Assembly (NCBI GenBank): GCA_002173095.1
Contig: NHBK01000012.1
Location: 1-64,000, forward strand
DNA from: Hyphomonadaceae bacterium TMED5
GTDB taxonomy: Bacteria > Pseudomonadota > Alphaproteobacteria > Caulobacterales > Hyphomonadaceae
Length of the DNA: 64,000 nt
Reading direction: 5' to 3'
In this document: one piece after another, positions 12,828-52,562 of the stretch
Position numbering within the stretch: position 1 is the stretch's first letter
How the letters are laid out: every line of letters starts with the position of its first letter
Translations under genes and position numbers: made by a program
Notes under the pieces: model-generated
What the model was told of the DNA's origin: nothing
Databases searched by the model: none
Seen by the model: the letters and a program-made list of their open reading frames with translations, nothing else

Positions 12828-12952
12828 GGTCTTAACGACTGACTCAACCAATAATTAATTCAAGATTGGCTTTAAGGCACAAAGCAATTTCAGGTCGGGC
12901 AAACGTTGTGAAAAGCATGAAACGGTCACAAAGCGTCAGGAAAGACGGTCGC

Positions 12953-15607: not shown

Positions 15608-16054
15608 ATGGCAAAACACGTAGAAATCTGGACAGACGGAGCTTGCTCTGGAAACCCGGGCCCGGGCGGTTGGGGCGTGTTTCTGAAAAGCGGCACGCAC
15701 GAAAAGGAATTGTTTGGCGGAGAAGCCGAAACCACGAACAACCGTATGGAGCTTATGGCTGCCATTCAGGCCCTCAATGCGGTGAAGAAGGGCAACGCCG
15801 TCACCCTGCATACGGACTCTACCTACGTGAAAGACGGGCTGACAAAGTGGATTTTCAACTGGAAACGCAATGGCTGGAAAACAGCAGCGAAAAAACCAGT
15901 GAAGAATGCCGACCTATGGCAGATGCTGGATGATGCTGCCGCCCAGCATAAAGACCTGACCTGGAAATGGGTCAAAGGTCATGCCGGAGACGAAGGCAAT
16001 GAGCGCGCAGACGCGCTCGCCCGAAAAGGCGCAGATCAACATAAGACCAAATAA
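15608..16054 (+). CDS. rnhA: Ribonuclease HI
   Basis: This 148-residue enzyme cleaves the RNA strand of RNA-DNA hybrids (R-loops, Okazaki primers). The catalytic quartet is complete: D10 in [12 protein letters not shown]48 in N-N-R-M-E-L, D70 in L-H-T-D-S-T-Y, and D135 in N-E-R-A-D-A-L-A, plus the flexible-loop H125. The [11 protein letters not shown] basic protrusion typical of bacterial type 1 is present. It is the third member of the ispH-thrB-rnhA set. Confidence 0.96.
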
Positions 16055-16081
16055 AAAAGCCGCCCAATAGGTGGCTTTTCA
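16052..16081 (+). terminator. Terminator after rnhA
   Basis: The stem AAGCCGCC/GGTGGCTT (one G-T pair) with an upstream A-run and TTTTC tail starts at the rnhA stop. It marks the edge between the conserved block and the polysaccharide locus. Confidence 0.75.
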
Positions 16082-16111: not shown

Positions 16112-16540
16112 TTATTCGCTCAGATAGAGCGAGAACATCTTCACTCCGAGCAGGCGCTCATCTCCGCTTTCACCTACTTCAACCGGTGAAACAGCTTCCG
16201 GAAAATCGAATTCGAATTCCATACGACCTTTCTTCAGCATTTCCGGATCGACCTTGACGGAAACGGTTTCGCGAAAGCGCAGAACCCGTGAGGCGCATCG
16301 CCGACCATTGCAATAGATTGCAACCGTTTGCTGAGCGGCCATTGGGCGAATGATGTAAGGCTCGAAATCGAAATTCAACACTGTGTCGTCAGACTTGATC
16401 CCACTAGGATCATATTCGAAGACAAGGCGAGCGACTTTTTCTTCGCTCCAGGTGAATTTATCTTCTGGTTCCGACCATCCATATTTTTCGACGACGTTCA
16501 AATCCTTAGTAGACCCGTCGTAGAAAAATCCATGTTTCAT
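16112..16540 (-). CDS. Stand-alone beta-rich domain protein of the polysaccharide locus
   Basis: This 142-residue soluble protein has no signal peptide. The start is ATG 16540, with AGGGGATG spaced well before it; the longer frame to 16657 lacks this. It aligns by eye over its length with the C-terminal about 125 residues of the sulfotransferase at 24683-25870. Shared order: G-W-x(8)-W, a L-x-F/M-D-F strand, a T/L-V-x(3)-N-G segment, and an ending with F-E-F and a final L-G/F-V/L strand. I infer a carbohydrate-associated beta-sandwich, perhaps acting with a sulfotransferase. Function unknown. It has its own 354-base AT-rich upstream spacer. Confidence 0.65.
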   Translation of the reverse strand: MKHGFFYDGSTKDLNVVEKYGWSEPEDKFTWSEEKVARLVFEYDPSGIKSDDTVLNFDFEPYIIRPMAAQQTVAIYCNGRRCASRVLRFRETVSVKVDPEMLKKGRMEFEFDFPEAVSPVEVGESGDERLLGVKMFSLYLSE

Positions 16541-16894
16541 TTTGCATCCCCTAGTTACTAAACAACAATCAACACCACCCAGAATAGAATCCCTCACCGA
16601 TTCCAGTCTTCGTTCCCCGGCCCAACCGCCGGGATAGTAAACACAGCCTTTATACACAAGCTAAAACTAGCTTGAGCTGTATAGATTTCTTTTTCGGGTC
16701 CCCACCCAAACCGACTCAGAGAGAGTCGAAAGATTTGATTGCTTAAAACACACGCAGATTGCCGTAAGGCAAGCCTTAATTTAGATAGGCCTCAAAAATT
16801 CAGAATAGAAATTTCTGAAACCTCGCACCACTAGAGAAATCTGTATTTCCTCTACCGCGCACAACCTGTTGGTTTTATTTCTCTAATTCTTACC
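16541..16894. other. AT-rich spacer with several small palindromes, no gene
   Basis: This 354-base stretch between two minus-strand genes looks richer in A+T than its surroundings. It holds short inverted repeats: AAGCTA/TAGCTT, GACTC/GAGTC, TAAGGC/GCCTTA and TCAGAA/TTCTGA. It presumably contains the promoter of the small 16112-16540 gene and the transcript end of the sulfotransferase operon. No ORF here has a ribosome site or a recognisable product. Confidence 0.5.
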
Positions 16895-17884
16895 CTAGGG
16901 CTGCCAATTCGCCCGAGCATTGTCATAGAGTTTCTGATCCAGCACGGTTAGGGCTTCCAGGCGCTCTGCCAGTTTGTCGGAAACGTCTTCCGCGATCACG
17001 AAATTCAGACCCTTATTCCTGTCAGCGGTGGATGAAGCATCTGAACTGTTCTTATGCAGGATTTTACCCTCGAACTCAAAGCCGAGCACTGCAAAAATAT
17101 GTGAGCAGGATTGATCCATATCTTCGACAAATCCATAAGCCGCCATATTGCCAAGACGCGTTTGCGCCATCTCCAGGGCCTTGTCAGGATCGATATCTAC
17201 AATCGTTTTCGGAAAAGGTTTGCGCGGGAAGAAGGCTTCCCAGCGCTTGCATGGCAATGCATCGCTAAGCTGGCGCACCATTCCATTGTCGAGACTGGGA
17301 TGAGCTTCCAGCTCAGGCATCAGGAAGAAATCCTCCATGCTGAGCTGACGCGCCAGACTGGCCAGCCGGATATTCTCCGGAGAGATGCGGCGCACATTTG
17401 CCGTCGGATGGCCGCGAAGAAACCGGTACATGGAAACCAGCCGCTCTTTAGGGTCTCGCAGCAGAGTGATGATCTTTTTCTCGCCCGGAATAAAATCAAT
17501 CGAGCGCGCATCGTAATGACCGGAAAACAGCCCGCACTCCAGAAGGTGGGTCAGTGGCCAATTGAGAAGGCCGTTATGGCGCTCTTCCGCCATCTTCAGG
17601 CCGCGCTCATTCGCCATCCGCTTCAGGATCTGGTGAAAACTGGTGCCGCCGCATTTAGGGATGTGCTGAAACACAATGACTTCGCGGTCAGCAGCAGGCG
17701 TTGCTTCAGGTACATATTGTGTCCAGTGACCGACCATATCGCGAAATTCCGGGCTGCTGGAAAGGCGCTGGCGCAGATGGTCAACGTCTTTCACATTCTC
17801 CAGCTCTTTCAGCACGGCTTCATCTTCCAGCAGCTTGCCGAAAAACAGATGATATGCGGTCTGAATAGTCTGTGGCAAAAGCAT
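16895..17884 (-). CDS. Sulfotransferase family protein (polysaccharide locus)
   Basis: This 329-residue predicted cytoplasmic enzyme would transfer sulfate from PAPS to an acceptor, probably a sugar. The 5'-phosphosulfate-binding loop F-Q-H-I-P-K-C-G-G-T-S (residues 72-82) and the 3'-phosphate motif R-D-P-K-E-R-L-V-S-M-Y (143-153) are intact. A helical N-terminal extension of about 65 residues precedes the fold. It is the third gene of a minus-strand set behind an ABC permease and ATPase (32-base gap). This suggests that modification and export of the polymer are linked. The substrate cannot be read from sequence. Confidence 0.82.
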   Translation of the reverse strand: MLLPQTIQTAYHLFFGKLLEDEAVLKELENVKDVDHLRQRLSSSPEFRDMVGHWTQYVPEATPAADREVIVFQHIPKCGGTSFHQILKRMANERGLKMAEERHNGLLNWPLTHLLECGLFSGHYDARSIDFIPGEKKIITLLRDPKERLVSMYRFLRGHPTANVRRISPENIRLASLARQLSMEDFFLMPELEAHPSLDNGMVRQLSDALPCKRWEAFFPRKPFPKTIVDIDPDKALEMAQTRLGNMAAYGFVEDMDQSCSHIFAVLGFEFEGKILHKNSSDASSTADRNKGLNFVIAEDVSDKLAERLEALTVLDQKLYDNARANWQP

Positions 17885-17916
17885 GGATCGCCCCTCCCTT
17901 TAAAGCAAAGCCCTGA

Positions 17917-18711
17917 TCAGGCCGATTGCTGGTTCCTGCGACGGCCCTGGCCACCCCTGGTCTGCTGCTGTTGGGCACGTTTCATGGTTCTGATGATCGT
18001 CTCGACATTGTCGAAATCCAGCAATTTGCCGTGTTCGAAATACATGGCCTTCTCACATGCGCGGCGAACCATGTTTTTATTGTGAGAGGCGAGCATTAGA
18101 ATACCGGCATCAGCGACCAGCTTTGTCAGGCGTTCATTAGCTTTTTGCCTGAATTCAGCATCACCTGCGCCCAGCCATTCATCCATAAGAATGATGTCTG
18201 GGTTAAACGCCGTGCTGCACGCAAATTTCAGGCGCAGCAGCATACCGTTTGAATAGGTCCGGATTGGCAAAGCCAGGAACCGTCCCAGTTCAGTGAACTC
18301 AGCGATCTCATCGACTTTTTCTTCAATCTCTTCGCGCGATTTACCCGCCGCGAGCCCGGACAAAGTGATGTTGCGATACCCGGTCGCTTCCATGCGCATG
18401 CCCAGACCGACATTGAACAGCTCTGCCACTTCGCCCTGAACTTCAATCTCACCACTCGTCGGAGGAAAGATGCCGGCCGCTGCCTTGAGCAGTGTGGACT
18501 TACCCGCACCATTGCGCCCTAGAAGCGCAATACGGTCGCCGCGATTGATCTCAAAGCTCACATCGTCCAGCGCGCGAATAGTTTTCGGCGCAGAATATCT
18601 CTTGGGTTGCTCCCCCTCACCGGTGTTTGTCGGGCGCAATTCCTTATTCTTCAGAAAGTCGGAATGCGTGTGAAACTCGATGCTGACATTTTTAAATTTC
18701 AGATAGGTCAT
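17917..18711 (-). CDS. ABC transporter ATPase for polysaccharide export (KpsT/Wzt type)
   Basis: This 264-residue nucleotide-binding subunit pairs with the adjacent permease to export a lipid-linked polysaccharide. Walker A is G-R-N-G-A-G-K-S-T (residues 65-73). The signature is the degenerate Y-S-N-G-M-x-L-R-L seen in capsule/O-antigen exporters. Walker B is I-I-L-M-D-E-W followed by G-A-G-D. A charged insert (about residues 15-45) separates the first strand from the core. It lacks the long C-terminal sugar-binding domain of O9a-type Wzt, so it is closer to KpsT in size. A basic Arg/Gln-rich tail ends the protein. The ATG at 18711 follows the permease stop by one base. Confidence 0.9.
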   Translation of the reverse strand: MTYLKFKNVSIEFHTHSDFLKNKELRPTNTGEGEQPKRYSAPKTIRALDDVSFEINRGDRIALLGRNGAGKSTLLKAAAGIFPPTSGEIEVQGEVAELFNVGLGMRMEATGYRNITLSGLAAGKSREEIEEKVDEIAEFTELGRFLALPIRTYSNGMLLRLKFACSTAFNPDIILMDEWLGAGDAEFRQKANERLTKLVADAGILMLASHNKNMVRRACEKAMYFEHGKLLDFDNVETIIRTMKRAQQQQTRGGQGRRRNQQSA

Positions 18712-18712
18712 A

Positions 18713-19567
18713 TCAGATCCAATACACGATCCGGCGATACGCAAACTGCAAGGCTGCCATGCTGAGAATGCCCAGTGCGGCCGTCACACCCAGAACAACA
18801 AACACGCTTGTCCAGGGAATGGTCCCATAGATGAGCGGTGTTCGCACTGAAATCAGGAAGTGTGCGATCGGGTTATAGACCAGAAGATTATCCCATAAGG
18901 CTCCCATTTTTTCCGGCTGCCAGAGCACGGGCGACAAAAACAGGAAGATATGGTTGAGGCTTTGAACGAGATAAAAGAAGTCACGCGACCGGACTGTAAT
19001 CACGCCGAAGAGAATGGAGATGAAGAAGGCGTTGATCGGGTACAAAATGACCACGATGAACAGCGAGATCAGCGCATTTGGCGTCCATTCCGTGCCGCCA
19101 AGAACAAGGATCACCGCCACCACCAGAACCTGGATAAGTGCCGTGAGAATATTCCGCGTCACCATTTGAAACGCGAAAATGGAGAAAGGCAATTTGCGCC
19201 CTTTGATCCAGCCTTCTGAAGATATGAAGGTCGCGCACCCATCAACGAGACAGCGCTGAATAAATATCCAGATGAAATACCCTGTAGCGAGGTATTTCAG
19301 ATAATCGACCACGTCGACATCCAGAATAACGCTGAAGATCGCAAATTTGACGGAAAGAAAAAGACCGAAGGAAAGCAGGATCCAGAGCATACCGATCGCG
19401 GATCGCTTATATCTCTGCAGAAGGTCTTCGGTTGCCAACGCCCACCATAGGTTTACGCGTTTCGCACCGCGCACGACATCCTTCAGGGCTTCAATAGCGC
19501 TCTGCTTGGGCTGGTAAATGACCGGCTCCGGCGATGGCCTGATGTCTGTTATTGTAGAATCACTCAT
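18713..19567 (-). CDS. ABC transporter permease for polysaccharide export (KpsM/Wzm type)
   Basis: This 284-residue integral membrane subunit (ABC-2 type) has six likely membrane segments, beginning near residue 65 (A-I-G-M-L-W-I-L-L-S-F-G-L-F). It ends with A-L-Q-F-A-Y-R-R-I-V-Y-W-I, a C-terminal pattern typical of polysaccharide-export permeases. W-x-L-A-T-E-D-L-L-Q-R-Y-K-R-S near residue 45 matches the amphipathic helix before the first segment in this family. It starts the exporter operon (permease, ATPase, sulfotransferase). Confidence 0.9.
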   Translation of the reverse strand: MSDSTITDIRPSPEPVIYQPKQSAIEALKDVVRGAKRVNLWWALATEDLLQRYKRSAIGMLWILLSFGLFLSVKFAIFSVILDVDVVDYLKYLATGYFIWIFIQRCLVDGCATFISSEGWIKGRKLPFSIFAFQMVTRNILTALIQVLVVAVILVLGGTEWTPNALISLFIVVILYPINAFFISILFGVITVRSRDFFYLVQSLNHIFLFLSPVLWQPEKMGALWDNLLVYNPIAHFLISVRTPLIYGTIPWTSVFVVLGVTAALGILSMAALQFAYRRIVYWI

Positions 19568-19895
19568 ATAAATTTCATTAGTTAGCTGGCGTCCGCCTGA
19601 AGCATGGAATCACTGCATTCAGTGTATCACGCAGTGTCAGTCTGAGCTGTTTCAACTTTCAGGACTTTCGCCAGTGTATATCCTTATCTGGTGAATAGCC
19701 GGTCAGTCGCGCGCCAATGCTGCAAAGCTGATCAATACGCCCTCAGGCGAGGTGTAAAAGCTGGTTTATGCGCAGCGCTCTGACCTGACCCGGTTAGAGA
19801 GTGTTTATCGCAAAATCCCCCTGCGATGACTTTGGCGGGTGGGTGATTGTTTTATGCCCTACCCGCTGACTGAAGCCTGTCCCCTATCTATAGCC
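19568..19895. other. Intergenic spacer between the exporter and glycosyltransferase operons
   Basis: This 328-base gap must carry the exporter promoter (minus strand) and the end of the glycosyltransferase transcript. Visible elements are CACTGC (19611-19616) with CAGTG (19620-19624) and GCAGTG (19631-19636) as inverted half-sites, and ATCGCA/TGCGAT around a run of C near 19808-19828. I could not place a convincing -35/-10 pair. A 128-codon plus-strand frame here overlaps the next gene and looks non-coding. Confidence 0.4.
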
Positions 19896-20393
19896 TTAGA
19901 GCCCATTGGCCCGCTTGTCTTTAAAAAACTTGTCCACGATCAGCCGCCGAGGCGCAGAAAAGACGGGCGTTCTGAGGATTCTGTCTGCCAGACAATACGT
20001 CCAGCCCCCGGCAACATAGAGCCCCATCTTATGGCGTTTATCTTTCGCACAGGCATGCATGGCCTGCAGGCGGGCAGACCGCGAGTACACTTCATCACAT
20101 GGGTGGAAGTGGCGGTCCTCAAATCCAAAATATCCAAAATACGCCAATTGCAGAAGGTCGTTAAAGACAGGGTCTGGAAGGCTCAGAAATTCCTTCACAT
20201 GGAATTTGTCCCTCAGGCTGAATGAAAAGTTTCGGATTACTGCGTCGTTGCCTGGCTGTTTCATGCCGACCATCGAGCCTCCTGAATTGGAAAGTTCAGA
20301 TATTACTTCGCCGAACATCTCACTCAGCCAGAGTGCATGTTCATAGCGCCTTGTTACATTGCGGCGGCTGGCAGAAATGTCTTCAAAGGTCAT
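19896..20393 (-). CDS. Unknown protein coupled to a glycosyltransferase
   Basis: This 165-residue soluble protein has no signal or membrane segment. It begins one base after the stop of the tandem glycosyltransferase gene, with GGGGGA serving as ribosome site, so its translation is coupled. It has an N-terminal charged helix, an aromatic patch (L-A-Y-F-G-Y-F-G-F-E-D-R-H-F-H) and a basic C-terminus. His and Cys residues (H-F-H-P-C, H-A-C) could bind a metal, but no family motif was recognised. Its place as the last gene of the glycosyltransferase operon suggests a role in assembly or modification of the same polymer. Confidence 0.6.
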   Translation of the reverse strand: MTFEDISASRRNVTRRYEHALWLSEMFGEVISELSNSGGSMVGMKQPGNDAVIRNFSFSLRDKFHVKEFLSLPDPVFNDLLQLAYFGYFGFEDRHFHPCDEVYSRSARLQAMHACAKDKRHKMGLYVAGGWTYCLADRILRTPVFSAPRRLIVDKFFKDKRANGL

Positions 20394-20394
20394 T

Positions 20395-22674
20395 TCATCC
20401 CCCACCCGATCTCGTCAGAGCCGACAGATAAACATCGCTGAGATCATTAAAATCCGGATGCGCTGCGCTCCAATTGCGGGCCTCACCTTCCAGATACCGG
20501 CGCGCCGGACCGTTTGTCAGGTAAAATATCGTCCGCTCTGCCAGAATACTGACAAAACTGCCGTCCGGGCTCAGTTTTTCCACCACAGTATCGGGTATCT
20601 CGGCAAACCAGCCAATGTCAGAGACCAGGCACGCTCTGCCGCATGCAAGAGCCCGCATCAATACGCCGGATGTCTCTCCCCGCGTGACGGAACGGAAGTT
20701 CCAGATCAGATCTGCTGACGCCAGATGTTGATCCAGTTCTTTATCTTCCACAAAGCCTGTCAGTGTCACCCGCTTGGCGAATTCCATTTCAGCCAGCGCG
20801 TTTTCAAACTGGCGGACAAAGGCTTCATCATCCGTATTCATCTGGCCGACAATCACAAGCTCTGCATCAAGCCCGGCATGACTGACCGCTTCAAAGCCAT
20901 CCAGGCACCGCAGAATATCCTTATCGGCCGTAACATTGCCAAGCACCGCAATCCGAAAGGCTGACCGCTTTTTCTTACCGGGCCTGACCTTGCTCGAATG
21001 ACGTGGATGAGGCGCAAGCATCAGGTCAGCTTTGCGATCCCCACAAACCTCAAAAAGCTTTTTCGCGCTGGTCACATTGTGCACGAGCAGTTTCGCACCT
21101 GCAGGCACGCTCTCTACGAGCCATTGGCGAATGCGCGCAGATTTTTGCATCTCCGTACGCGCAACATCGCGGCCTTCTGCTTCATCGTAAGCGGCGAGCA
21201 GTTCATGCAGCTCCAGATCATGAAGCACCAGCAAAAGCGGCGTACCGGCAAAACCTGTCAGATCCACACAATCTGAGTGGAAATGGTGGTTATTGCCAAT
21301 CTGAACGATCACCCCATCAAGCTGGGATAATTGAGACTGCACATCACTGACCAATGGTTCGCCAGAAGCCGGATGCGCCATAGCGCATTTCAGCTCAGCC
21401 TTTGACTTTAACGGCTCGACCAATGCATTCGCAAAATCAGCAATGCCAGATTTATCCGGTGGGAAGGGCGACACCATAGCAAGGCGCGGCCTGACACCGG
21501 GCTCAGCATCACTCATGATCGCCGCGCTCAGCGTATCCAGATAGGCTGAAACCGTTTTTTCCCAGCTGAACTGAGACGCGATTTTGACGTATTTGGAGAT
21601 ATTCGGATTGCGGCCCTTCTGGCGCTGCACAAACTTATCCAATGCGTCGGCAATCGTCCCGCTATCGGATGGGTCGAAATAATTCAGACCATCACCGCCA
21701 ATTTCCCGGAAAGGCGGGATATCTGACAGCAAGACAGGCGTGCCGCAGCTGAGCGCCTCCAACACGGGAAGACCGAAGCCCTCACTTTTAGACGGCATAA
21801 GCGTGCAAATGGCGCTCTGGTAGAGCTGGGTCAGCTCTGCGGGCCGCACTGTACCGACAAACCTCACAGACGACTTAAACTCAGACGCTTCAATCAGTTC
21901 ATCAAGACGCTGTTTCAGCGGCGCACTGATATGTCCGGTGATGACAAGCGACAGGTTATCAACCTCGCGCAAAGCCTTGCTCGCCAGAAAGCCCGAAACA
22001 GCTCCATAGACATTTTTGCGCTCATCATCGCCGCCTACCATCAGTACGAATGGCGCCCGGCTTCTGCCCAAAGGCGGCTTATAGCTTAACGGCCAGAAGG
22101 CGTTCGGCCTGCAGGCGATAGGAATTCCGGAAACGTGAGCCTTTGCCTCCGGAACAAGCTCTCTCACCCGGTCTGCGGTAAATTCAGAGACGCAGAAAAC
22201 ATGCGAGAACGCGCTCATCACGTTTGCGACGCGCACTTCAAAGGCTTGCCGCGCCTCTTCCTGTCCGACCGGAAAATAACTCTCAGCATGATCCATAGGG
22301 ATCAGGTCATGCACGATGGCCGCGCTCGCTTTCACCGGCAGATCAAGCGGACAGTCCACATTCATCATGAGAGGGTTCGGATTGAGATAGACCTCAACGC
22401 CATAAGCCTCAATTTTCTCTGCCAGCAGCGCCGTATAGGCGGCATCGCGTTCGGCTGCACCGCTCACATCGGGCATACGAATGTGCAATGGAATGATATT
22501 GGCCTGCACCCAGCCCGGAAGCTTCTCCAGATCAGCTTCGCGCCTCACCGCCAGAAAAACGAGCGGCCCATCAGGGCGACGGCATAGCTCTGCCAGCGTG
22601 TTCAGGAAAACCTGCCCGATGCCTCTTTCAAACTCCTCAGTTGAAAGCGTCTGACCATCCAGAAGAAGTTTCAC
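20395..22674 (-). CDS. Tandem GT4-type glycosyltransferase
   Basis: This 759-residue protein has two glycosyltransferase group 1 (GT-B fold) units. The first (about residues 1-385) carries V-L-M-V-G-G-D-D-E-R-K-N and the sugar-nucleotide E-x7-E signature S-E-G-F-G-L-P-V-L-E-A. The second (about 395-755) carries A-V-L-G-N-V-T-A-D-K-D and a divergent T-S-G-V-L-M-R-A-L-A-C-G. Because the second unit lacks a clean E-G-F-G-x-x-x-x-E, it may bind a different donor or be regulatory. The start is a GTG overlapping the stop of the upstream glycosyltransferase (GTGA). It would add two linkages to a surface polymer; donor and linkage cannot be read from sequence. Confidence 0.85.
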   Translation of the reverse strand: MKLLLDGQTLSTEEFERGIGQVFLNTLAELCRRPDGPLVFLAVRREADLEKLPGWVQANIIPLHIRMPDVSGAAERDAAYTALLAEKIEAYGVEVYLNPNPLMMNVDCPLDLPVKASAAIVHDLIPMDHAESYFPVGQEEARQAFEVRVANVMSAFSHVFCVSEFTADRVRELVPEAKAHVSGIPIACRPNAFWPLSYKPPLGRSRAPFVLMVGGDDERKNVYGAVSGFLASKALREVDNLSLVITGHISAPLKQRLDELIEASEFKSSVRFVGTVRPAELTQLYQSAICTLMPSKSEGFGLPVLEALSCGTPVLLSDIPPFREIGGDGLNYFDPSDSGTIADALDKFVQRQKGRNPNISKYVKIASQFSWEKTVSAYLDTLSAAIMSDAEPGVRPRLAMVSPFPPDKSGIADFANALVEPLKSKAELKCAMAHPASGEPLVSDVQSQLSQLDGVIVQIGNNHHFHSDCVDLTGFAGTPLLLVLHDLELHELLAAYDEAEGRDVARTEMQKSARIRQWLVESVPAGAKLLVHNVTSAKKLFEVCGDRKADLMLAPHPRHSSKVRPGKKKRSAFRIAVLGNVTADKDILRCLDGFEAVSHAGLDAELVIVGQMNTDDEAFVRQFENALAEMEFAKRVTLTGFVEDKELDQHLASADLIWNFRSVTRGETSGVLMRALACGRACLVSDIGWFAEIPDTVVEKLSPDGSFVSILAERTIFYLTNGPARRYLEGEARNWSAAHPDFNDLSDVYLSALTRSGGG

Positions 22675-23864
22675 GGCCCCATCTCTTCCAGATAGCGGTT
22701 GATGATCTTCGCCGGATTATAGGAATCCCTCACCCAGTTTCGGCCAGAACGTCCGAGGCCGTTTCTTACCTCATCATCTGCCAGTGCCTGCAGCGCTTTG
22801 GTGTAATTGTCCTGACTGCTGACCGGAATGCCCGCGCCCGATGACATGGCGAACTCACGCGTGACAGGGCAATCACCGCTTACGATAACCGACGTGCCCT
22901 GTAGCGCCGCTTCCATCAGCACATAGCCAAAGCTCTCATTGCGCGACAGGTTCGCCAGCCCTTTCGCGCCGCGCATTAGGCTCAGCTTTTCTTTCTCGCT
23001 GGCATAGCCTTCGAACAACACGTCTGGATGTTCAGGGATAAGGGCTTCATTGCCCGCGCCGACAATGCGCAGCTTTAAAGGCGTGCGCTCTGCCCGGCGT
23101 TCAGCATTTGCATATCCGACATGCCATTTGCAAAGCTCTGGCAAAGCCTTACCCGCCTCGAGACGCCCGACATAGAGCACATAAGGGTCGCGCGCTGGCA
23201 GAGCGGCTTGAGGCGCCGTCTCCTTTGGTGCTTCCACGGGAAGGCCAAGCACCGGCCAGTCTTCCAGCTTTCGACCAAGCTCATGTCCATAAGCCTGCGT
23301 GACGAGGTTCTTTTCCAGCTGTGAATAGAAGAAGACCCGACGTGCCGATTTCAGCATTTTCAGCACGGGCGCCCAATAAAATTCCGGTTCATCGTGAAAG
23401 GCCGGAAGCAGGATGACATTCCAGGGCAGCGCGCGGATGATCTGATGACTGAGGCCTTGATAATATGGCCCGGTCATAACGACATCCACAGCCGGGTCGA
23501 AGGTCTCTTTCAGATATTCAATCAAAGCCAGACTGCCGATGGAATGCAGAAAGAAGTCTTCCTGAAGCTTGGGCCCCGGTTCTTTGCCCTGCCCGATCAG
23601 TTCCAGCGCTCGGAAATGCTTTTTCAGCTCTACATCGACGGGGAAACGGCGCACGGTGATGCCATCGCGCTGATATTCGCATGGCGCAAATTGTTCGGTC
23701 TGCCAGTCTGAATAAGGTGATTTGGACGTGGTGGTCAGGACCTCCACTTCAAATCCATACTCATGAAAATAGCGCGCAAGGTCGGAAAAGGTCCGTTCAG
23801 ACCCGCCCGCAAATACGTCGAACCATGGGCAGGCCAGGAAGATGCGCGCGCGCCTTTTGATCAT
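22671..23864 (-). CDS. GT4-family glycosyltransferase
   Basis: This 397-residue single GT-B enzyme has an N-terminal acceptor domain opening A-C-P-W-F-D-V-F-A-G-G-S-E-R (the glycine-rich loop) and a donor domain with Y-V-L-Y-V-G-R-L-E-A-G-K-A. The E-x7-E segment reads N-E-S-F-G-Y-V-L-M-E-A. It is probably membrane-associated through a basic face rather than a membrane segment. It overlaps the next glycosyltransferase gene by 4 bases. A sulfotransferase gene lies 65 bases upstream, consistent with stepwise building and sulfation of one polymer. Confidence 0.87.
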   Translation of the reverse strand: MIKRRARIFLACPWFDVFAGGSERTFSDLARYFHEYGFEVEVLTTTSKSPYSDWQTEQFAPCEYQRDGITVRRFPVDVELKKHFRALELIGQGKEPGPKLQEDFFLHSIGSLALIEYLKETFDPAVDVVMTGPYYQGLSHQIIRALPWNVILLPAFHDEPEFYWAPVLKMLKSARRVFFYSQLEKNLVTQAYGHELGRKLEDWPVLGLPVEAPKETAPQAALPARDPYVLYVGRLEAGKALPELCKWHVGYANAERRAERTPLKLRIVGAGNEALIPEHPDVLFEGYASEKEKLSLMRGAKGLANLSRNESFGYVLMEAALQGTSVIVSGDCPVTREFAMSSGAGIPVSSQDNYTKALQALADDEVRNGLGRSGRNWVRDSYNPAKIINRYLEEMGP

Positions 23865-23929
23865 CCTGATACTTCTGTGTTTTGCAGAACCTGCCCGACC
23901 GGACGCATGACCGTCAGAACGAGAAGCTT

Positions 23930-24661
23930 CTAGCTTTCATTCAGGCGAATGTTCTTGAGATTGTCGTAAGACGGCTCAAGCGCATTCTCGTAAATGCCTT
24001 TGATATAATAATAGAGAACCAGATCTTCCTTGTTCAGGTCGATAATCATCTCCAGCAATTCGCGATCAAGATATTCCGGCTTTGCATAGCTGCCTTTGGA
24101 CGCGGTGTTTCGCTTTTCCATTTCCGGCGCTTTCGGCAGGCCGAGCAGGCTGGAGGCTTCCGGCATAAGCAAATGCCCGAACTCCATCGTATTCACCTTG
24201 ATATTGTTCTTCTTAATGGAGCGCAGTGCCGCTTTCGAGGTCCGCTGACGGTTCTCAGAGAGATAATTGCACTGAAGATTGTTGATCTGGCTACGAAAGC
24301 GCGTGGAGACCTCAATCGCCCTTTTGATCGAAATCTCTGACAGCTCTTCATACAGGGCATGGCCCGGACGGCTACAGATAAAGTTGTGCAGCGAAATCGC
24401 ACGGCTCACAGGCTCACGCAGTGTCGCAAAATACTGGTATCCATCCTTATAGGTCTGGCTGGCCAGACCATAGGGAATGTGTCCGCCAACAACCGTATGG
24501 GCGAGGTTTTCCGGCGTATCCGCGCGGAACTTGTCCATGGAGACGTTGTTCTCGCCAAGCCAGAGCACTTTTTCCCGGCCGATCTGATCCTGAACCGTCT
24601 TGCGGAAAGACGTGCCCGCGGCTTTCGGGATGTGAATGAAGAAAATCTTGTCCAACTGCAA
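23930..24661 (-). CDS. Sulfotransferase family protein, short form
   Basis: This 243-residue predicted PAPS-dependent enzyme has the PAPS loop F-F-I-H-I-P-K-A-A-G-T-S-F (residues 7-19) at the very N-terminus. The 3'-phosphate segment is L-R-E-P-V-S-R-A-I-S-L-H (81-92), with His where Tyr is usual. It resembles the Sulfotransfer_2 / heparan 2-O-type fold in having H-I-P-K-x-x-G-T-S. It sits 21 bases downstream of the longer sulfotransferase, in one operon with the glycosyltransferases. It lacks the extra C-terminal beta domain of its neighbour. Confidence 0.8.
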   Translation of the reverse strand: MQLDKIFFIHIPKAAGTSFRKTVQDQIGREKVLWLGENNVSMDKFRADTPENLAHTVVGGHIPYGLASQTYKDGYQYFATLREPVSRAISLHNFICSRPGHALYEELSEISIKRAIEVSTRFRSQINNLQCNYLSENRQRTSKAALRSIKKNNIKVNTMEFGHLLMPEASSLLGLPKAPEMEKRNTASKGSYAKPEYLDRELLEMIIDLNKEDLVLYYYIKGIYENALEPSYDNLKNIRLNES

Positions 24662-24682
24662 ATCCTTGCGTGATTGGTCTGG

Positions 24683-25870
24683 CTAGACGTATTGCAGGCC
24701 GAGAAGTTTAAAGCTGAGCTGGCGCACATCGTCTGAATCGACATGATCAGCAGGACGGAAGGCCTTGGAGGCTTTGAACTCGAAGGACAAATGACCCGCC
24801 ACTTTGCCGAAATCCTTTTCGGAAATGTTCAGCACCAGCTTGAAGTCACGACCGTCCGGACCATCAACTTTGTGCGTTTCGACCTGCTCGCCATTCAGAA
24901 GAACTGTCAGCTCGTTTTCCATGCCCGGATTAGGCAGGAAGGTCGTGAAATCCATGATCAGATAGCCACGAGATGGGCCTTCAACGCGAATATCGAGCTT
25001 CGCACTGCGCGTTTCATTCATCCAGATACCGCGCGGTTCCAGATTATACCAACCTTTGGTCAGCGAACTGCGATAGGCCTGATTGGCGATATTGATGTCG
25101 ATCGGCGTGTGATATGGCACCGTCTTCCAATGGTCGATCAGGGCAATCTGATAAAGCTTCTGATCCCATTCGGTGTGACGTTCGATTTCCGCCTCGATCT
25201 CTGGCGTCATCGGTTCTTTTTCGACCTTCTCGTGCACTTTGTCTTCGGCAGAGCCAAACTGCGCTGAATTTCGGGCATGCGGAATAGTGCCATCGAACGG
25301 CAGGCCGACAATGTCCATCGCCTGTGTGATGGATTTATCCATGGCTTCGAGGAAACCAACAAAGCGGAACTGGCCAAGGTTTTCACGCGCAAGGTCAAGC
25401 AGTTCTTTGCGCTGCCCGAAGGTCTCAAACTGCGCATTGATGGTGCGGCCGAGCGATTTGACCATAATGTTGTTGATATTGCCCGGAATGCCGTCCTCAT
25501 TATACCGCAGGAACTCAAGCAGAGAGTGGCTCTTTGCCACTTCAGGGCCCTTCAGATTACCGCGCTTGATGACTTCCCAGCGATGGCTCCGCCAGAAATA
25601 ATACAGCGACAGCAGGCGGGATTTCGGTTCACGGATAAAAGTGATGTATTCCTTCGGGCCCGGAATATTCAGAGTATTCTGCCAGTCATAATGACCCGAG
25701 AAGAACTTGTACTCGTTGAACTTCTCCGCATCCATTTCATGCAAGCGGTTAAAACGCTCTGGAGACGTGTTCTTCTTTCCAACACCATCCACAATCAGAT
25801 CATGAAGACTGGTACCGCCGGTTTTTGGCAGGTGTAGAAAGACGAGCTTTTTATTGTCAGTTATTGGCAT
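24683..25870 (-). CDS. Sulfotransferase with C-terminal beta-rich domain
   Basis: This 395-residue protein has an N-terminal sulfotransferase fold with PAPS loop F-L-H-L-P-K-T-G-G-T-S (residues 11-21) and R-E-P-K-S-R-L-L-S-L-Y (80-90). About 125 extra residues (270-395) follow. They look like a beta-sandwich: alternating hydrophobic strands, N-G-E-Q turn, H-L-S-F-E-F and an ending L-L-G-L-Q-Y-V. The same module is encoded alone at 16112-16540. I infer the extra domain binds the glycan or docks the enzyme. It lies between glycosyltransferase 25895-28822 and the short sulfotransferase with 20-25-base gaps. Confidence 0.83.
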   Translation of the reverse strand: MPITDNKKLVFLHLPKTGGTSLHDLIVDGVGKKNTSPERFNRLHEMDAEKFNEYKFFSGHYDWQNTLNIPGPKEYITFIREPKSRLLSLYYFWRSHRWEVIKRGNLKGPEVAKSHSLLEFLRYNEDGIPGNINNIMVKSLGRTINAQFETFGQRKELLDLARENLGQFRFVGFLEAMDKSITQAMDIVGLPFDGTIPHARNSAQFGSAEDKVHEKVEKEPMTPEIEAEIERHTEWDQKLYQIALIDHWKTVPYHTPIDINIANQAYRSSLTKGWYNLEPRGIWMNETRSAKLDIRVEGPSRGYLIMDFTTFLPNPGMENELTVLLNGEQVETHKVDGPDGRDFKLVLNISEKDFGKVAGHLSFEFKASKAFRPADHVDSDDVRQLSFKLLGLQYV

Positions 25871-25894
25871 CTGAATTCCTTAAACCGCTTTATA

Positions 25895-28822
25895 TCAGGC
25901 GTTTTCAGCAAGAAGTTTTTCTACATCAAGCGAAATCGTTTCCGCAACGCCCCACCAGTTAACGGCCTCCTGAACCATCTCAATCTGGATCTGCGCCACG
26001 CCCTGCTCTAGCTGGCTGACAGGCACCTGAATCGGAAGGTAGATGGATTCTCCCGGCACGATCACGAATGGAATACGCGTCCGCGGGTTGTCGTAAACAA
26101 GCATATCTCCGCGCGCATTCAGTGCGTGATAGCCCAATCCGACTTTGAATTCGCCGCGCTCATTGCCTTCGCTTGACCATGGCACGTCGCTGAGATTGGT
26201 CAGCTTCACATTGATGCGAATGTCTTCAGACGCCGACTCCCGGAATGGCGGCTCAATCACTTCAATCTTGTGCTTGGTATCAGCCTTGGAGAGAGGCCCG
26301 GTCATCTTGCTTTTGCCAATAGAGCCGCGGTCAATGAAGCCTGCACCCGCTTTCGGCTTGTAATGATAATACCAATCCTGATTGACGAGCACATTCTCGA
26401 TTTGCTCGGCGCTTTGTTTCCAGGTCGGCCAAGGCTTCACTTCGCCTTTGGTGACCTTGGACTTGCTCTTGATGAAGGACTTCACCGCATCGGCGAGCGC
26501 ATCAGAATTGCCGACTTCAAAGAAGCTCGCACCGCTTGCGCCTTCAGAGACCTCGCGGAACACGTCGATATCGCTGGCGATGACCGGCTTACCGTATTGG
26601 CCCGCTTCCACGATTGGCAGACCGAAGCCTTCCGCATAGGACGCAGCGACGAGTGAGTCGCACTCAGAATACAGCTCGACCAGCTTCTCATCTGAGACGT
26701 ATTCATGCCATTTCAAACGCTTGTCGAACTCTTCATGCTCTTCGATTTCGTCGAGCAGATGGCGGATATTCCAGCCCTCTTTGCCCACAATCGTCAGCTT
26801 GACGTTCACGCCCTCTTTCCAAAGCTTGGAGAACGCACGGATCGAAACGCTATAGCCTTTACGCGGCTCAAGCGTGCCGACCATCAGGAAGTGAGGCGTT
26901 TGGTCCTTCTTCGTGGAGGCTGCATCCGCATCGACCTGCAGATTGAAGTTTGCGCCATTATGGAAATAGCCCACCTTCATTTCGCGCGGGAATTCCATAC
27001 CTTCCAGCGTGCGAATGAGGTCATCAGCCGTCGCCTTGGATACACATACAAACCCTGTCGCATAGCGCAGAGCGCCATCCAGCCAGCTGGCAAATCCCGG
27101 CGGCATACCCGCATCACAGAAAGCAGACGCCTTGAGCGGCACAAGGTCGTGCAGACCGATAGTGATATCTACACCGCGCGCACGATAGCCCATCAGACGA
27201 TGGCGCTGCAGGGATTGCTCAATCCACGAACTGTCGAGGAAGAAGATATGGTCTCCAAGGCCTGGGAAAATCCGGTTTTCATCCGTCTTACGAGCCGGCA
27301 AAACCCGATTGTTTTCTGATACGCCAATTTTGTAGAAACCATCATCCTGCTTACCACAGAAGACCATCTCCCAAGGCATGTCGTCCGGCCCTTTTGGCAG
27401 GTTCATCAGCTCTACAGCGACGTTGCGCACGACACGCTGAATGCCCGTGCCACTGTCAAACAGTGAGGTCTGAGTTGCATCATAAAGAAGATGCGGCTGC
27501 CCTGCCTTTTGTGGTTCCGTTGATGCAAGAACTTTCGAGATTTCGCCCTTGTCCAGACCAAGTCGTTTCACACGCGTGGAAATCGCCTTACGCGATTTGG
27601 CCACATCTGGCGCGCGCATAGATTTCTTGCTGGCCGCAAGGTGAAGTTCTGCAGACGCGATCTCCGCGCTCTTTTCCCAGGAGAAGAGTTTTGCACGTTC
27701 AAGACCGCGCTCAGTGAGTTTTGCAGTGTCTGCGCGCCCCTCAACGATTGGACGAATAATCGTCATCAATTCATTCGGGTTTTCCGGGTCGAACAGGACA
27801 TCGTCATAGCCGATGACTTCAGGCACCGCGCCCGCATTACCGGCCGCAACAGGTGTGCCACACGCCATAGCTTCCAGAACGGTCAGGCCGAAGCCTTCCA
27901 TCAAAGAAGGTTGGATCAGCATCATGGCGTCTTTATAGAACGCAACCAGGTCTGCTTCTGATACATGGCTGACAGAGAACAGATTTTCCAATGGCAGACC
28001 GTGGTTTCGCCATTGGTTCATCATGCTGTCGAGAATATGTTCGCTATGTTCCCCGACCATGATCAACTTCACAGCACGGCGTTGTTTAGACGGCAGACGC
28101 TTTACCGCATCAAAGATAAGCGGAACGTTCTTCCGCCAGTCTACACCGCCAACATAGAGAAGATAATCGCCATAGCGGGCCTTCATTTTACCCGCTTCAA
28201 CCGTATCGATCAGCGAGGTAAATTCTGCGCCCAGACCAGCTGAAATACTCTTCACCTCAATGCCCGGATACAGCTCCGACAGCTCATCAGCTGAGAACTG
28301 AGAGTTGGCGAGATTGCGATCGAAATCCTGATAGTATTTCAGGCGGTTATAATAATACTCATGTACCCGCTTATCCTTCAGGTATTGCTCGGGATAGCGG
28401 TTCGGAATGGCGTCATGAAAAATAGACACCATTGGGATATCACATCCAAACCCAGGCAGAATCGGGCAGGAGGAATCAAAACTGCCCTCAAACGGGCTGC
28501 CGTTCAGGATTACATCTGGCGCAAGGCAGTTCACATGGTGTGCAAGAGAATACTGCGCCAGTTGACGCTTCTCATCAAAACCGGTGTGAGCTTCTCCCTC
28601 GTTCACAGGGTTTGTCCAAATGAAGACATTCTCCGCAGGAATGTACGGCGCGACACGTTCCTTAGCATCAAGGGCTTGGCGCATCATCGATGACGAGAAA
28701 GATATCAAAAGCTCGATATCATCCTTCGCAGCCAGCGCGCGCAGCAATTCTTCTACATAGCGGCCAATACCCCTGAAGCGACTAGCCGTCTGCAGGCACT
28801 GACCATCAACCCATACTCTCAT
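25895..28822 (-). CDS. Large tandem GT4 glycosyltransferase with C-terminal domain
   Basis: About 975 residues with two complete GT-B units. Unit 1 (about 1-405) has R-F-R-G-I-G-R-Y-V-E-E-L, Y-V-G-G-V-D-W-R-K-N and M-E-G-F-G-L-T-V-L-E-A. Unit 2 (about 435-820) has G-T-G-I-Q-R-V-V-R-N-V, M-V-G-T-L-E-P-R-K-G-Y and A-E-G-F-G-L-P-I-V-E-A. The last about 130 residues form a beta-rich module (N-V-K-L-T-N-L-S-D-V-P-W, V-P-G-E-S-I-Y-L-P-I) resembling immunoglobulin-like accessory domains. I chose the ATG at 28822; an upstream TTG adds five residues. Two catalytic units suggest an alternating-linkage polymerase, which is inference. Confidence 0.87.
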   Translation of the reverse strand: MRVWVDGQCLQTASRFRGIGRYVEELLRALAAKDDIELLISFSSSMMRQALDAKERVAPYIPAENVFIWTNPVNEGEAHTGFDEKRQLAQYSLAHHVNCLAPDVILNGSPFEGSFDSSCPILPGFGCDIPMVSIFHDAIPNRYPEQYLKDKRVHEYYYNRLKYYQDFDRNLANSQFSADELSELYPGIEVKSISAGLGAEFTSLIDTVEAGKMKARYGDYLLYVGGVDWRKNVPLIFDAVKRLPSKQRRAVKLIMVGEHSEHILDSMMNQWRNHGLPLENLFSVSHVSEADLVAFYKDAMMLIQPSLMEGFGLTVLEAMACGTPVAAGNAGAVPEVIGYDDVLFDPENPNELMTIIRPIVEGRADTAKLTERGLERAKLFSWEKSAEIASAELHLAASKKSMRAPDVAKSRKAISTRVKRLGLDKGEISKVLASTEPQKAGQPHLLYDATQTSLFDSGTGIQRVVRNVAVELMNLPKGPDDMPWEMVFCGKQDDGFYKIGVSENNRVLPARKTDENRIFPGLGDHIFFLDSSWIEQSLQRHRLMGYRARGVDITIGLHDLVPLKASAFCDAGMPPGFASWLDGALRYATGFVCVSKATADDLIRTLEGMEFPREMKVGYFHNGANFNLQVDADAASTKKDQTPHFLMVGTLEPRKGYSVSIRAFSKLWKEGVNVKLTIVGKEGWNIRHLLDEIEEHEEFDKRLKWHEYVSDEKLVELYSECDSLVAASYAEGFGLPIVEAGQYGKPVIASDIDVFREVSEGASGASFFEVGNSDALADAVKSFIKSKSKVTKGEVKPWPTWKQSAEQIENVLVNQDWYYHYKPKAGAGFIDRGSIGKSKMTGPLSKADTKHKIEVIEPPFRESASEDIRINVKLTNLSDVPWSSEGNERGEFKVGLGYHALNARGDMLVYDNPRTRIPFVIVPGESIYLPIQVPVSQLEQGVAQIQIEMVQEAVNWWGVAETISLDVEKLLAENA

Positions 28823-28844
28823 TTCAGACGTCCCCAATCAGCGA

Positions 28845-29723
28845 TCACACACCCAGAAGGGCATCCCATTCGGACTTCGCGTTCGGATTCACATCCACGC
28901 TCATCGTATCGAACAGTTTGCCTTCAATCGCTGTTTCACTCTCTACACCCTCACCACGATGCAGAACCTTGTTCATTGCCCAGCGGACCGGAGCCGTCAG
29001 GCGCCATGACGTGGAGCTCTGGATCGAGGCCACTCGGCCAATTTGCTTGTCGACTTCACGTTCAAGCTCACCAATTCGGTGAATGAACGCATGAAGCTCG
29101 CGTCGATGTTCATCAGCCGCAATCCTCACCTGATCCACCGCAGCTTCGGAAATCTCTTCCTGACGCTTCAGACGCGCTTCCGCATCGGCCAGACGGGCCT
29201 CGGTATCTGCAAGGCGCGCTTCAGCATTCTGGCGTTCGGCGCGAACCAGCTGGAATGATTTGCGGCTGGCGTCGAGCTTGGTCTCAGATTCCATCAAAGA
29301 CTGACGAAGCCCCAGCACCTCTTGCATGGATGCGCCCGTCATATCTGCGCTCGCAGCTATCGGCGCAGATCCTAGCGGCGCGATAAGAACAAGAATCTGG
29401 TCAAAAAGATCGTAGAATGCACGTTCCAGCTCAGCCGGAATTGTCATTGGAACGGTTGATTTGGAGGCCGCCTTTGCCGTCGTCTTCGCCGTAGACTTTG
29501 CAGTCGTTTTGGAAGCGCCGGGAAGATCGGTCCGGTTCTGCGCCAGATATGTCAGCTCACCAAAAGCCTGATTCAGCGCAAAGAACTTCATTTTCAGATA
29601 AGTCGTCGACCGCTTGTCCGGCGCGTCGGAAATCCGATCAAGTTCGGAATAAAGGTCCGCAATCTGGGATTCGAGTGTCTGTCTGCGCTCGACAAAGTAA
29701 TCTATGAGTCCCGAACTACTCAT
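28845..29723 (-). CDS. Coiled-coil protein with SSTSWRLTAP-type motif
   Basis: This 292-residue soluble protein has a helical N-terminus (about 1-75), a low-complexity Lys/Thr/Ala/Ser linker (about 78-100), then a second helical part. A long heptad coiled coil (about 145-235) follows, with the repeat A-R-L-A-D-x-E run three times. The segment S-S-T-S-W-R-L-T-A-P-V-R-W (about 247-259) matches a motif I know from C-terminal ends of coiled coils in polysaccharide glycosyltransferases and methyltransferases, where such coils can act as rulers or membrane scaffolds. It is the first gene of the glycosyltransferase operon, 22 bases upstream of the large tandem enzyme. Its own enzymatic activity is unlikely. 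Confidence 0.7.
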   Translation of the reverse strand: MSSSGLIDYFVERRQTLESQIADLYSELDRISDAPDKRSTTYLKMKFFALNQAFGELTYLAQNRTDLPGASKTTAKSTAKTTAKAASKSTVPMTIPAELERAFYDLFDQILVLIAPLGSAPIAASADMTGASMQEVLGLRQSLMESETKLDASRKSFQLVRAERQNAEARLADTEARLADAEARLKRQEEISEAAVDQVRIAADEHRRELHAFIHRIGELEREVDKQIGRVASIQSSTSWRLTAPVRWAMNKVLHRGEGVESETAIEGKLFDTMSVDVNPNAKSEWDALLGV

Positions 29724-29971: not shown

Positions 29972-30028
29972 TGAAAAAGAAAACATTTGAGATGCCGTTA
30001 TGGGCAGTTCGCCCAAATTAACGGCATC
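29972..30028 (-). terminator. Terminator after the peroxiredoxin gene
   Basis: GATGCCGTTA (29991-30000) pairs perfectly with TAACGGCATC (30019-30028). An inner TGGGC/GCCCA stem lies in the loop. On the minus strand it is followed by TCAAATGTTTTCTTTTTC. It separates the peroxiredoxin transcript from the polysaccharide locus. Confidence 0.72.
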
Positions 30029-30039
30029 CAATTTCCATC

Positions 30040-30522
30040 TTAAAGTTTGCCGAGCATATAGTCAGCGCTGGAGACCTCGAAGCTCGGGCCTTCTTCAACG
30101 TTAAGCTGGGTTACTTTGCCGTCGGTCACGACCATGGAATACCGGCGAGAACGTGTACCAAGGCCGAAGCCAGAGCCGTCCATTTCCAGACCAAGTGCAC
30201 CAGCAAAAGCGCCATTGCCGTCTGCGAGCATGACTACGTCTTCACCGACGGACTGGTCTTTGCCCCAGGCATCCATAACAAACACATCGTTCACAGATGT
30301 GCAGGCAATCGTGTCGATACCCTTTGATTTGAGCTCGCCAGCTTTCTCTTTAAAGCCCGGCAGGTGCTTAGCAGAACAGGTCGGCGTAAACGCGCCTGGC
30401 ACCGCGAACAGAGCAACGGTCTTGCCTGCGAAGAAGTCCTTGGACGCGACAGGTTCCGGGCCGCTCGCCCCCATTGTCATGAAAGTCGTTTCCGGCAGCG
30501 TGTCACCAACTGAGATTGTCAT
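30040..30522 (-). CDS. Peroxiredoxin (Prx5 family)
   Basis: This 160-residue thiol peroxidase reduces hydrogen and alkyl peroxides. The peroxidatic Cys is C49 in P-G-A-F-T-P-T-C-S, the standard PxxxTxxC site. G-L-G-L-G-T-R-S-R-R-Y and a closing V-E-E-G-P-S-F-E-V-S-S-A fit the Prx5/hybrid type. No glutaredoxin domain is fused. Only one Cys besides C49 is visible (in I-A-C-T-S-V-N-D-V), near residue 76. To my knowledge this gene is often close to ispH-thrB-rnhA in alphaproteobacteria; here the polysaccharide locus lies between. Confidence 0.92.
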   Translation of the reverse strand: MTISVGDTLPETTFMTMGASGPEPVASKDFFAGKTVALFAVPGAFTPTCSAKHLPGFKEKAGELKSKGIDTIACTSVNDVFVMDAWGKDQSVGEDVVMLADGNGAFAGALGLEMDGSGFGLGTRSRRYSMVVTDGKVTQLNVEEGPSFEVSSADYMLGKL

Positions 30523-51607: not shown

Positions 51608-51612
51608 GCGTT

Positions 51613-52548: not shown

Positions 52549-52562
52549 GCTTTCCCCGGCTC

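Follow-up and report, generated by a model that had tools for sequence, protein, structure and literature searches.

The junction between rnhA and a peroxiredoxin gene in genomes of Ponticaulis appears to be a fixed site for a variable locus whose product would be a sulfated surface glycan exported by an ATP-binding cassette (ABC) transporter. We put the probability of this reading at roughly 70%. One allele of the locus would be the gene block found in the stretch of DNA analysed here, the first 64,000 nt of contig NHBK01000012.1 from Hyphomonadaceae bacterium TMED5 (referred to as the window). An initial annotation of the window, made from its letters alone, had described a sulfated-polysaccharide locus between the two genes, and its coordinates, strand and gene types were all borne out: 11 open reading frames (ORFs) lie on the minus strand within 16112–29723.

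The rnhA–peroxiredoxin interval of the window measures 13,985 bases (Table 1). Its 11 genes encode three sulfotransferases of the Pfam family Sulfotransfer_2, three glycosyltransferases of family GT4 (two of them tandem enzymes), the two components of an ABC exporter, one coiled-coil protein and two unknowns. In the direction of transcription the coiled-coil protein of 292 amino acids (aa) comes first, followed by the 980-aa GT4 enzyme, the 395-aa and 243-aa sulfotransferases, the 397-aa and 759-aa GT4 enzymes, the 169-aa orphan, the permease, the ATPase, the 329-aa sulfotransferase and the small protein. Judged from the coordinates, most adjacent genes overlap or sit no more than about 30 bases apart. 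Wider gaps are seen before the 397-aa gene (65 bases), the permease gene (328 bases) and the last gene (∼350 bases). The last figure holds for the start that we chose for the small protein, an inner ATG of an ORF that extends to 16657. No Pfam family was found for this ∼142-aa protein.

Table 1. Positions of the genes and hairpins at the rnhA–peroxiredoxin junction of the window.
Feature	Position	Strand	Evidence
rnhA (ribonuclease H), conserved left flank	15608–16054	+	77–81% identical to six congeners
Hairpin directly after rnhA	16055–16079		-14.2 kcal/mol; z -4.6 (+), -2.2 (-)
Small protein, ∼142 aa, resembling in pattern the C-terminal portion of the 395-aa sulfotransferase	16112–16540	-	Weak alignment, 18–26% identity
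Sulfotransferase, 329 aa	16895–17884	-	Sulfotransfer_2 1.4e-8, above cut-off
ABC ATPase, Wzt-like, 263 aa, without C-terminal glycan-binding domain	17917–18708	-	Pfam, NCBIfam and PDB matches
ABC permease, Wzm-like, 284 aa	18713–19567	-	Pfam, NCBIfam and PDB matches
Orphan protein, 169 aa; its start is overlapped by the 3′ end of the 759-aa glycosyltransferase gene that precedes it	19896–20405	-	No family
Tandem GT4 glycosyltransferase, 759 aa	20395–22674	-	Glycos_transf_1, two stretches, 3.1e-36
GT4 glycosyltransferase, 397 aa, one GT4 stretch	22671–23864	-	Glycos_transf_1 2.8e-11
Sulfotransferase, 243 aa	23930–24661	-	Sulfotransfer_2 5.7e-8, above cut-off
Sulfotransferase, 395 aa, with C-terminal domain (last 135 aa) without family	24683–25870	-	Sulfotransfer_2 3.4e-9, above cut-off
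Tandem GT4 glycosyltransferase, 980 aa, last 135 aa without family; candidate polymerase	25895–28837	-	Glycos_transf_1, two stretches, 6.9e-60
Coiled-coil protein, 292 aa, transcribed first in the set	28845–29723	-	Weak rod-protein matches; heptad signal 195–237
Hairpin directly after the peroxiredoxin gene	29991–30028		-27.7 kcal/mol; z -6.6 (+), -3.4 (-, whole stretch)
Peroxiredoxin, conserved right flank	30040–30522	-	82–92% identical to six congeners

Seven Ponticaulis genomes were compared, that of the window (G000) and six others (G001–G006), and in all seven rnhA and the peroxiredoxin gene are located on one contig. The site is empty in G005, where the stop codons of the two genes are 24 bases apart. 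In the remaining genomes it is occupied by intervals of 14,656 (G001), 14,642 (G004), 14,664 (G006), 22,230 (G003) and 13,103 bases (G002). As the intervals of G001, G004 and G006 are 92–95% identical in DNA, they represent one allele, and the six occupied intervals, the window included, thus hold four alleles. A Wzm/Wzt exporter pair, GT4 enzymes and sulfotransferase-like genes are found in every one of the four. The G001 allele has a Sulfotransfer_3 and a Stf0 gene above the Pfam cut-off, a Sulfotransfer_1 gene below it and one look-alike without family (24–25% identity); the G003 allele has two Sulfotransfer_2 genes and one Sulfotransfer_3 gene above the cut-off and one Sulfotransfer_1 gene below. 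The alleles also differ in further content: the G002 interval encodes an epimerase as well as a GDP-mannose dehydratase, and that of G001 a WcbI protein and a hexapeptide-repeat protein. Conserved flanks that enclose non-orthologous content in close relatives mark the junction as the site of a variable locus. In the synteny comparison proposed in the initial annotation, the gene order of the window was not found at the site in the relatives, and the genus shows four alleles and one empty site.

The exporter consists of an ABC-2 permease and an ATPase of the polysaccharide-exporter family, the combination expected of Wzm/Wzt pairs. Its best NCBIfam models are those of galactan-export Wzm (2.4e-45) and Wzt (1.8e-67), with scores of 155 and 227 bits that do not reach the galactan equivalog cut-offs of 380 and 400. 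The top PDB sequence matches are the 9qfx group of O-antigen/lipopolysaccharide transport proteins (permease 1.9e-29, ATPase 3e-58). Entries 8tsi and 8tsh, which we take to be KpsMT, were matched much lower by the ATPase (5e-30) and are absent from the four PDB matches of the permease. The KpsM/KpsT label of the initial annotation is thus not supported, and the pair is closest to galactan-type Wzm/Wzt. In the 263-aa ATPase the sole family above its cut-off is ABC_tran, which ends at residue 178, and no C-terminal carbohydrate-binding domain was found; only the Wzm/Wzt subtype that lacks this module therefore fits. PF04932, the family of WaaL-type O-antigen ligases, which also includes polymerases, has 2–5 matches in each of the seven genomes.

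The three sulfotransferases of the window exceed the Sulfotransfer_2 cut-off of 22 bits (35.7, 33.6 and 37.6 bits), and the 329-aa and 395-aa proteins are related to each other (32% identity over 262 aa). A phmmer search of the PDB with the 395-aa protein alone gave no match. Only a profile of five aligned sequences, three from the window and two from G003, succeeded, matching heparan sulfate 2-O-sulfotransferase (2e-7) and 6-O-sulfotransferase (6e-6). Invariant across this profile are the H, GTS and R.P..R..S residues, which we take to lie in the motifs that bind 3′-phosphoadenosine 5′-phosphosulfate (PAPS). The genome of the window also has an adenosine 5′-phosphosulfate (APS) kinase domain (235 bits, within a frame of 664 aa), on another contig, and inspection by eye revealed no N-terminal signal on the window's sulfotransferases. 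Family, motifs and PAPS supply are those of PAPS-dependent carbohydrate sulfotransferases, with glycan activity predicted, and we infer that the three enzymes act on the glycan of their own locus. From the PAPS-binding motifs, the missing N-terminal signal and the APS kinase, the best supported product would be an exported glycan that is sulfated before export. An AlphaFold model of the 395-aa protein computed without an alignment was too poor for use (mean predicted local distance difference test score, pLDDT, 38).

Eighty named peroxiredoxin loci were taken as fragments that extend up to 10 kb to each side, and 27 of the fragments include rnhA. Neither the permease nor the ATPase of the window had a match at E 1e-10 in any of these 27. 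The empty Ponticaulis site is among them; the gap is 40–97 bases in three loci of Hellea and one of Thalassobaculum, and 1.4–5.2 kb in the remainder, with one of 9.6 kb. Among the 53 fragments without an rnhA match, five are the occupied Ponticaulis loci. In a count of our own, rnhA and the peroxiredoxin gene lie within 5 kb of each other in 14/54 family genomes outside Ponticaulis. Twelve of these 14 linked Hyphomonadaceae loci were examined, two of them also among the 27 fragments, and all 12 had a gap of 1.6–4.0 kb and no exporter match. Several of the gaps outside the genus hold what is presumably a protein with a stomatin/SPFH-like start together with a small NfeD-like protein. Clustering of rnhA with the peroxiredoxin gene, which the initial annotation had stated as a tendency in alphaproteobacteria, is thus not universal. 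Its proposal that the locus was inserted at this place is supported by the 24-base gap in the congener, the short gaps in Hellea and Thalassobaculum and the 12 exporter-free loci, but since six of seven Ponticaulis genomes have glycan genes of four kinds at the site, there was no single, one-off insertion.

Pairing of exporter and sulfotransferase was examined in 61 relatives with 39 Sulfotransfer_2 matches (38 above the Pfam cut-off) and 49 permease matches; Sulfotransfer_3 was left out, as many of its matches lie in long frames. Nine of the 39 fall within 10 kb of a permease match, at four loci (G000, G003, G034 and G048), where 0.26 were expected. Without the window's genome the count is 6/34 at three loci, with a random-placement P of 0.001 (10 kb) or 0.009 (20 kb), a P that disregards the general clustering of glycan genes. 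The locus in G034, which belongs to another genus, is a similar set at a different place in the genome, near a contig end (C1:3770000-3785351), and shows a Wzm/Wzt pair, sulfotransferase matches and a 1063-aa protein weakly similar to a GT4 enzyme of G003.

By blastn, the window interval has no similarity to any of the other five occupied intervals. The window's permease, used as a query, matched its own genome once and retrieved the site versions of the five occupied congeners at E 2e-25 or better. The resident exporter thus seems to have been replaced, not moved. With no DNA similarity to the other alleles and no second exporter match in the genome, replacement of the whole locus is the likely origin of the window's allele. 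The empty-site genome G005 has an exporter pair elsewhere (contig C51), 31% and 45% identical to that of the window.

An alternative is that nothing was replaced and that the four gene sets diverged in place from one ancestral locus, with loss and gain of genes. G001, G002 and G003 do have a related core in common, namely the exporter (40–62% identity), a GT4 enzyme of ∼400 aa (48–57%) and a sulfotransferase-like gene of ∼318 aa, and weak protein similarity ties some window genes to the other alleles: the 759-aa GT4 enzyme to their 398-aa GT4 enzyme (29% over 130 aa) and the 243-aa sulfotransferase to a G003 sulfotransferase (31% over 109 aa). However, the window's permease and ATPase are only 30–35% and 36–44% identical to those of the other alleles, whereas the flanks are 77–92% identical; the gene order of the window differs as well, and none of the genes of the window locus was matched by the ∼318-aa core sulfotransferase in blastp (E 1e-4). 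Divergence in place is therefore quite improbable in our view. Less remote, and still unlikely, is that the locus makes a surface glycan exported by Wzm/Wzt while its sulfotransferase-like proteins sulfate a lipid or a small molecule, or are inactive. Substrates vary among sulfotransferase families. There is also a precedent in Aeromonas salmonicida, where the cluster of an ABC-exported O-antigen carries a gene with a sulfotransferase domain although the O-antigen, according to the authors, contains no residue of this kind (PMC4483657). In Ponticaulis, on the other hand, each allele has 2–4 sulfotransferase-like genes amid glycosyltransferases, and the best PDB matches of the window's group are polysaccharide sulfotransferases.

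The label of the initial annotation would also agree with a capsule of group 2 or 3 that has KpsMT as its exporter and Kdo (3-deoxy-D-manno-oct-2-ulosonic acid) as its linker. The G003 interval encodes a SIS-CBS protein, a type that also occurs as KpsF, and the sulfated capsules described in Cobetia and Vibrio are kps-bearing. Against this explanation stand the closeness of the exporter to Wzm/Wzt and the result for PF05159, the family of KpsC/KpsS-type proteins, which was found in 0/7 Ponticaulis genomes with a positive Escherichia coli control. We therefore reject it and retain the variable, sulfated, Wzm/Wzt-exported locus as the best reading.

Several observations weigh against that locus as we read it. 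Sulfotransferase genes are common, the window's genome having 5 PF03567 and 7 PF13469 matches, and 30 of the 39 Sulfotransfer_2 matches in the 61 relatives are not near this exporter; the pairing is thus enriched and not a rule. There are just four independent alleles, and among G001, G004 and G006 Pfam was run on G001 alone. In G002 the two sulfotransferase-like genes remain under the Pfam cut-off (20.6 and 15.7 bits against 22); they are 39–50% identical to genes of G001 and G003, a group with a weak PDB match (0.002). The empty site of G005 comes from a metagenome-assembled genome that is 91% complete and may reflect a choice of the assembly. Finally, the composition scan suggested in the initial annotation was not decisive and hardly points to recent import, with 52.6% GC in the locus and 54.8% in the rest of the window.

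The 292-aa protein heads the gene set, and its coiled coil is indicated by weak rod-protein matches, all under the curated cut-offs, and by a crude heptad scan. At E up to 10 no catalytic Pfam family or terminator domain was found on it. Across the alleles the heptad scan was positive only for this protein and one segment of the 1462-aa glycosyltransferase of G001, and a ruler protein is thus not demonstrated as a constant part of the locus. A pattern search for its SWRLTAP segment in the other alleles gave two matches in G003, both in a different sequence context. For the 169-aa orphan no Pfam or NCBIfam family was found, and a search of 385 genomes of the class returned its own gene and no credible relative. 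One other match (39% over 54 residues, 2.4e-4) was judged spurious: it falls in an unrelated frame, and the 1.7 kb available around it contain no glycan gene. An AlphaFold model of the orphan without an alignment was again too poor for use (mean pLDDT 37). A domain without family and with the pattern GW...P...D.R seems to recur in the window (16112-16540 and 24683-25120) and in two other alleles (L083:2750-3325, L085:5877-7265, L086:4744-5532), at a weak 18–26% identity. In the G001 allele it sits on a protein with a lipoprotein-like start, the lipobox being recognised by eye.

We propose that a lipid-linked glycan would be extended in the cytoplasm by the GT4 enzymes, mainly the two tandem proteins of 980 and 759 aa, and sulfated there by the three PAPS-dependent sulfotransferases. 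The Wzm/Wzt pair, having no glycan-binding domain, would export the glycan during synthesis, and the coiled-coil protein probably tethers the polymerase to the membrane or contributes to the control of chain length. The product may be linked to lipopolysaccharide, capsule-like or free. One allele would give way to another by exchange of everything that lies between the housekeeping flanks, presumably through recombination in the flanks, which is the simplest idea. More tentatively, and as something possible rather than probable, selection might keep the chemistry of a sulfated, ABC-exported coat, the window's allele having swapped exporter, glycosyltransferases and sulfotransferase for non-orthologous equivalents. 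In its boldest form the model would make a sulfate at the chain end the stop signal while the separate coiled-coil protein sets the distance, in effect a sulfate-capped WbdD ruler.

Some features lie at the ends of the locus or outside it. The initial annotation had the locus bracketed by terminators, and hairpins are indeed present at both ends (Table 1). A terminator consensus scan lists neither of them, and its 17 calls in the window show no excess over a shuffle mean of 16.9; the terminator and promoter scan of the window as a whole was no better than on shuffled sequence. About 20 kb from the locus, 50642–53636 holds genes for a sulfotransferase-like protein (50642-51607, plus strand), a GDP-fucose-synthase-like epimerase (51613-52548, minus strand) and a GDP-mannose 4,6-dehydratase (52563-53636, minus strand), which are possibly linked to it in function. 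The sulfotransferase match is below the cut-off (22.3 against 27), and the protein shares 24% identity with the core sulfotransferase that the other alleles carry. The GDP-mannose dehydratase gene lies inside the rnhA–peroxiredoxin interval in G002 and 22 kb from the peroxiredoxin gene in G003, as in the window; the best match in G005 is 35%. Sulfotransfer_3 matches in frames of 610–618 aa were also seen outside the interval, ∼6.5–9.6 kb beyond rnhA, in G003 (C20:91470-93820) and G002 (C45:14303-14842). Between a thrB-like gene and rnhA the window encodes a hybrid histidine kinase (HisKA, HATPase and response regulator domains; 12866-15493, listed with a TTG start).

If this reading is true, a little-studied marine genus has a serotype-like sulfated-glycan locus for which nature offers several alleles, and an empty version, at a single defined position. 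This would provide a clean system, with allele exchange and a read-out of the coat, for asking what purpose sulfation of bacterial surface sugars serves, and would also supply sulfotransferases that are distant relatives of the heparan sulfate enzymes.

It is well established that surface-glycan loci can vary at a fixed site, with examples in Klebsiella and E. coli, and on our best reading the locus is comparable to O-antigen or capsule loci. Klebsiella O1/O2-type Wzm/Wzt loci likewise have a permease and a short ATPase without a glycan-binding domain, multi-domain glycosyltransferases and a single gene block, and the exporter without a carbohydrate-binding module, the coupling of extension to export in O2a and coiled-coil rulers are described (PMC11231755). 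Unlike them, the window locus has three sulfotransferases and no recognisable terminator enzyme. WbdD-type terminators and rulers, as described, resemble it in that a coiled-coil protein is encoded beside a tandem GT4 enzyme in an ABC-dependent system; they differ in the terminator domain, none having been found on the window's 292-aa protein, whose coiled coil is weakly supported. In Cobetia marina KMM 1449 and in Vibrio sp. KMM 8419 the clusters for sulfated capsules are described as also uniting ABC export, glycosyltransferases and sulfotransferases and as varying between strains, but their exporters are of the kps type, with kpsSC in Cobetia and kpsS but no kpsC in Vibrio, and genes for PAPS synthesis lie within the cluster (PMC11766843, PMC11641403). 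Ponticaulis in contrast has Wzm/Wzt, no PF05159 gene in the genomes of the genus, and the APS kinase on another contig. The synechan (xss) cluster of Synechocystis, as described, is similar in combining sulfotransferases and glycosyltransferases, and sulfotransferases in putative ABC-type clusters of cyanobacteria are mentioned there (PMC8205485). Export of synechan is Wzx/Wzy-dependent, whereas the window locus has an ABC exporter and, by Pfam, no Wzx or Wzy family among its 11 genes. A title search of open-licence PMC papers found none on a Ponticaulis glycan locus. As the kind of locus is already known, the novelty lies in the site and the genus, together with the likely swap of a sulfating Wzm/Wzt locus.

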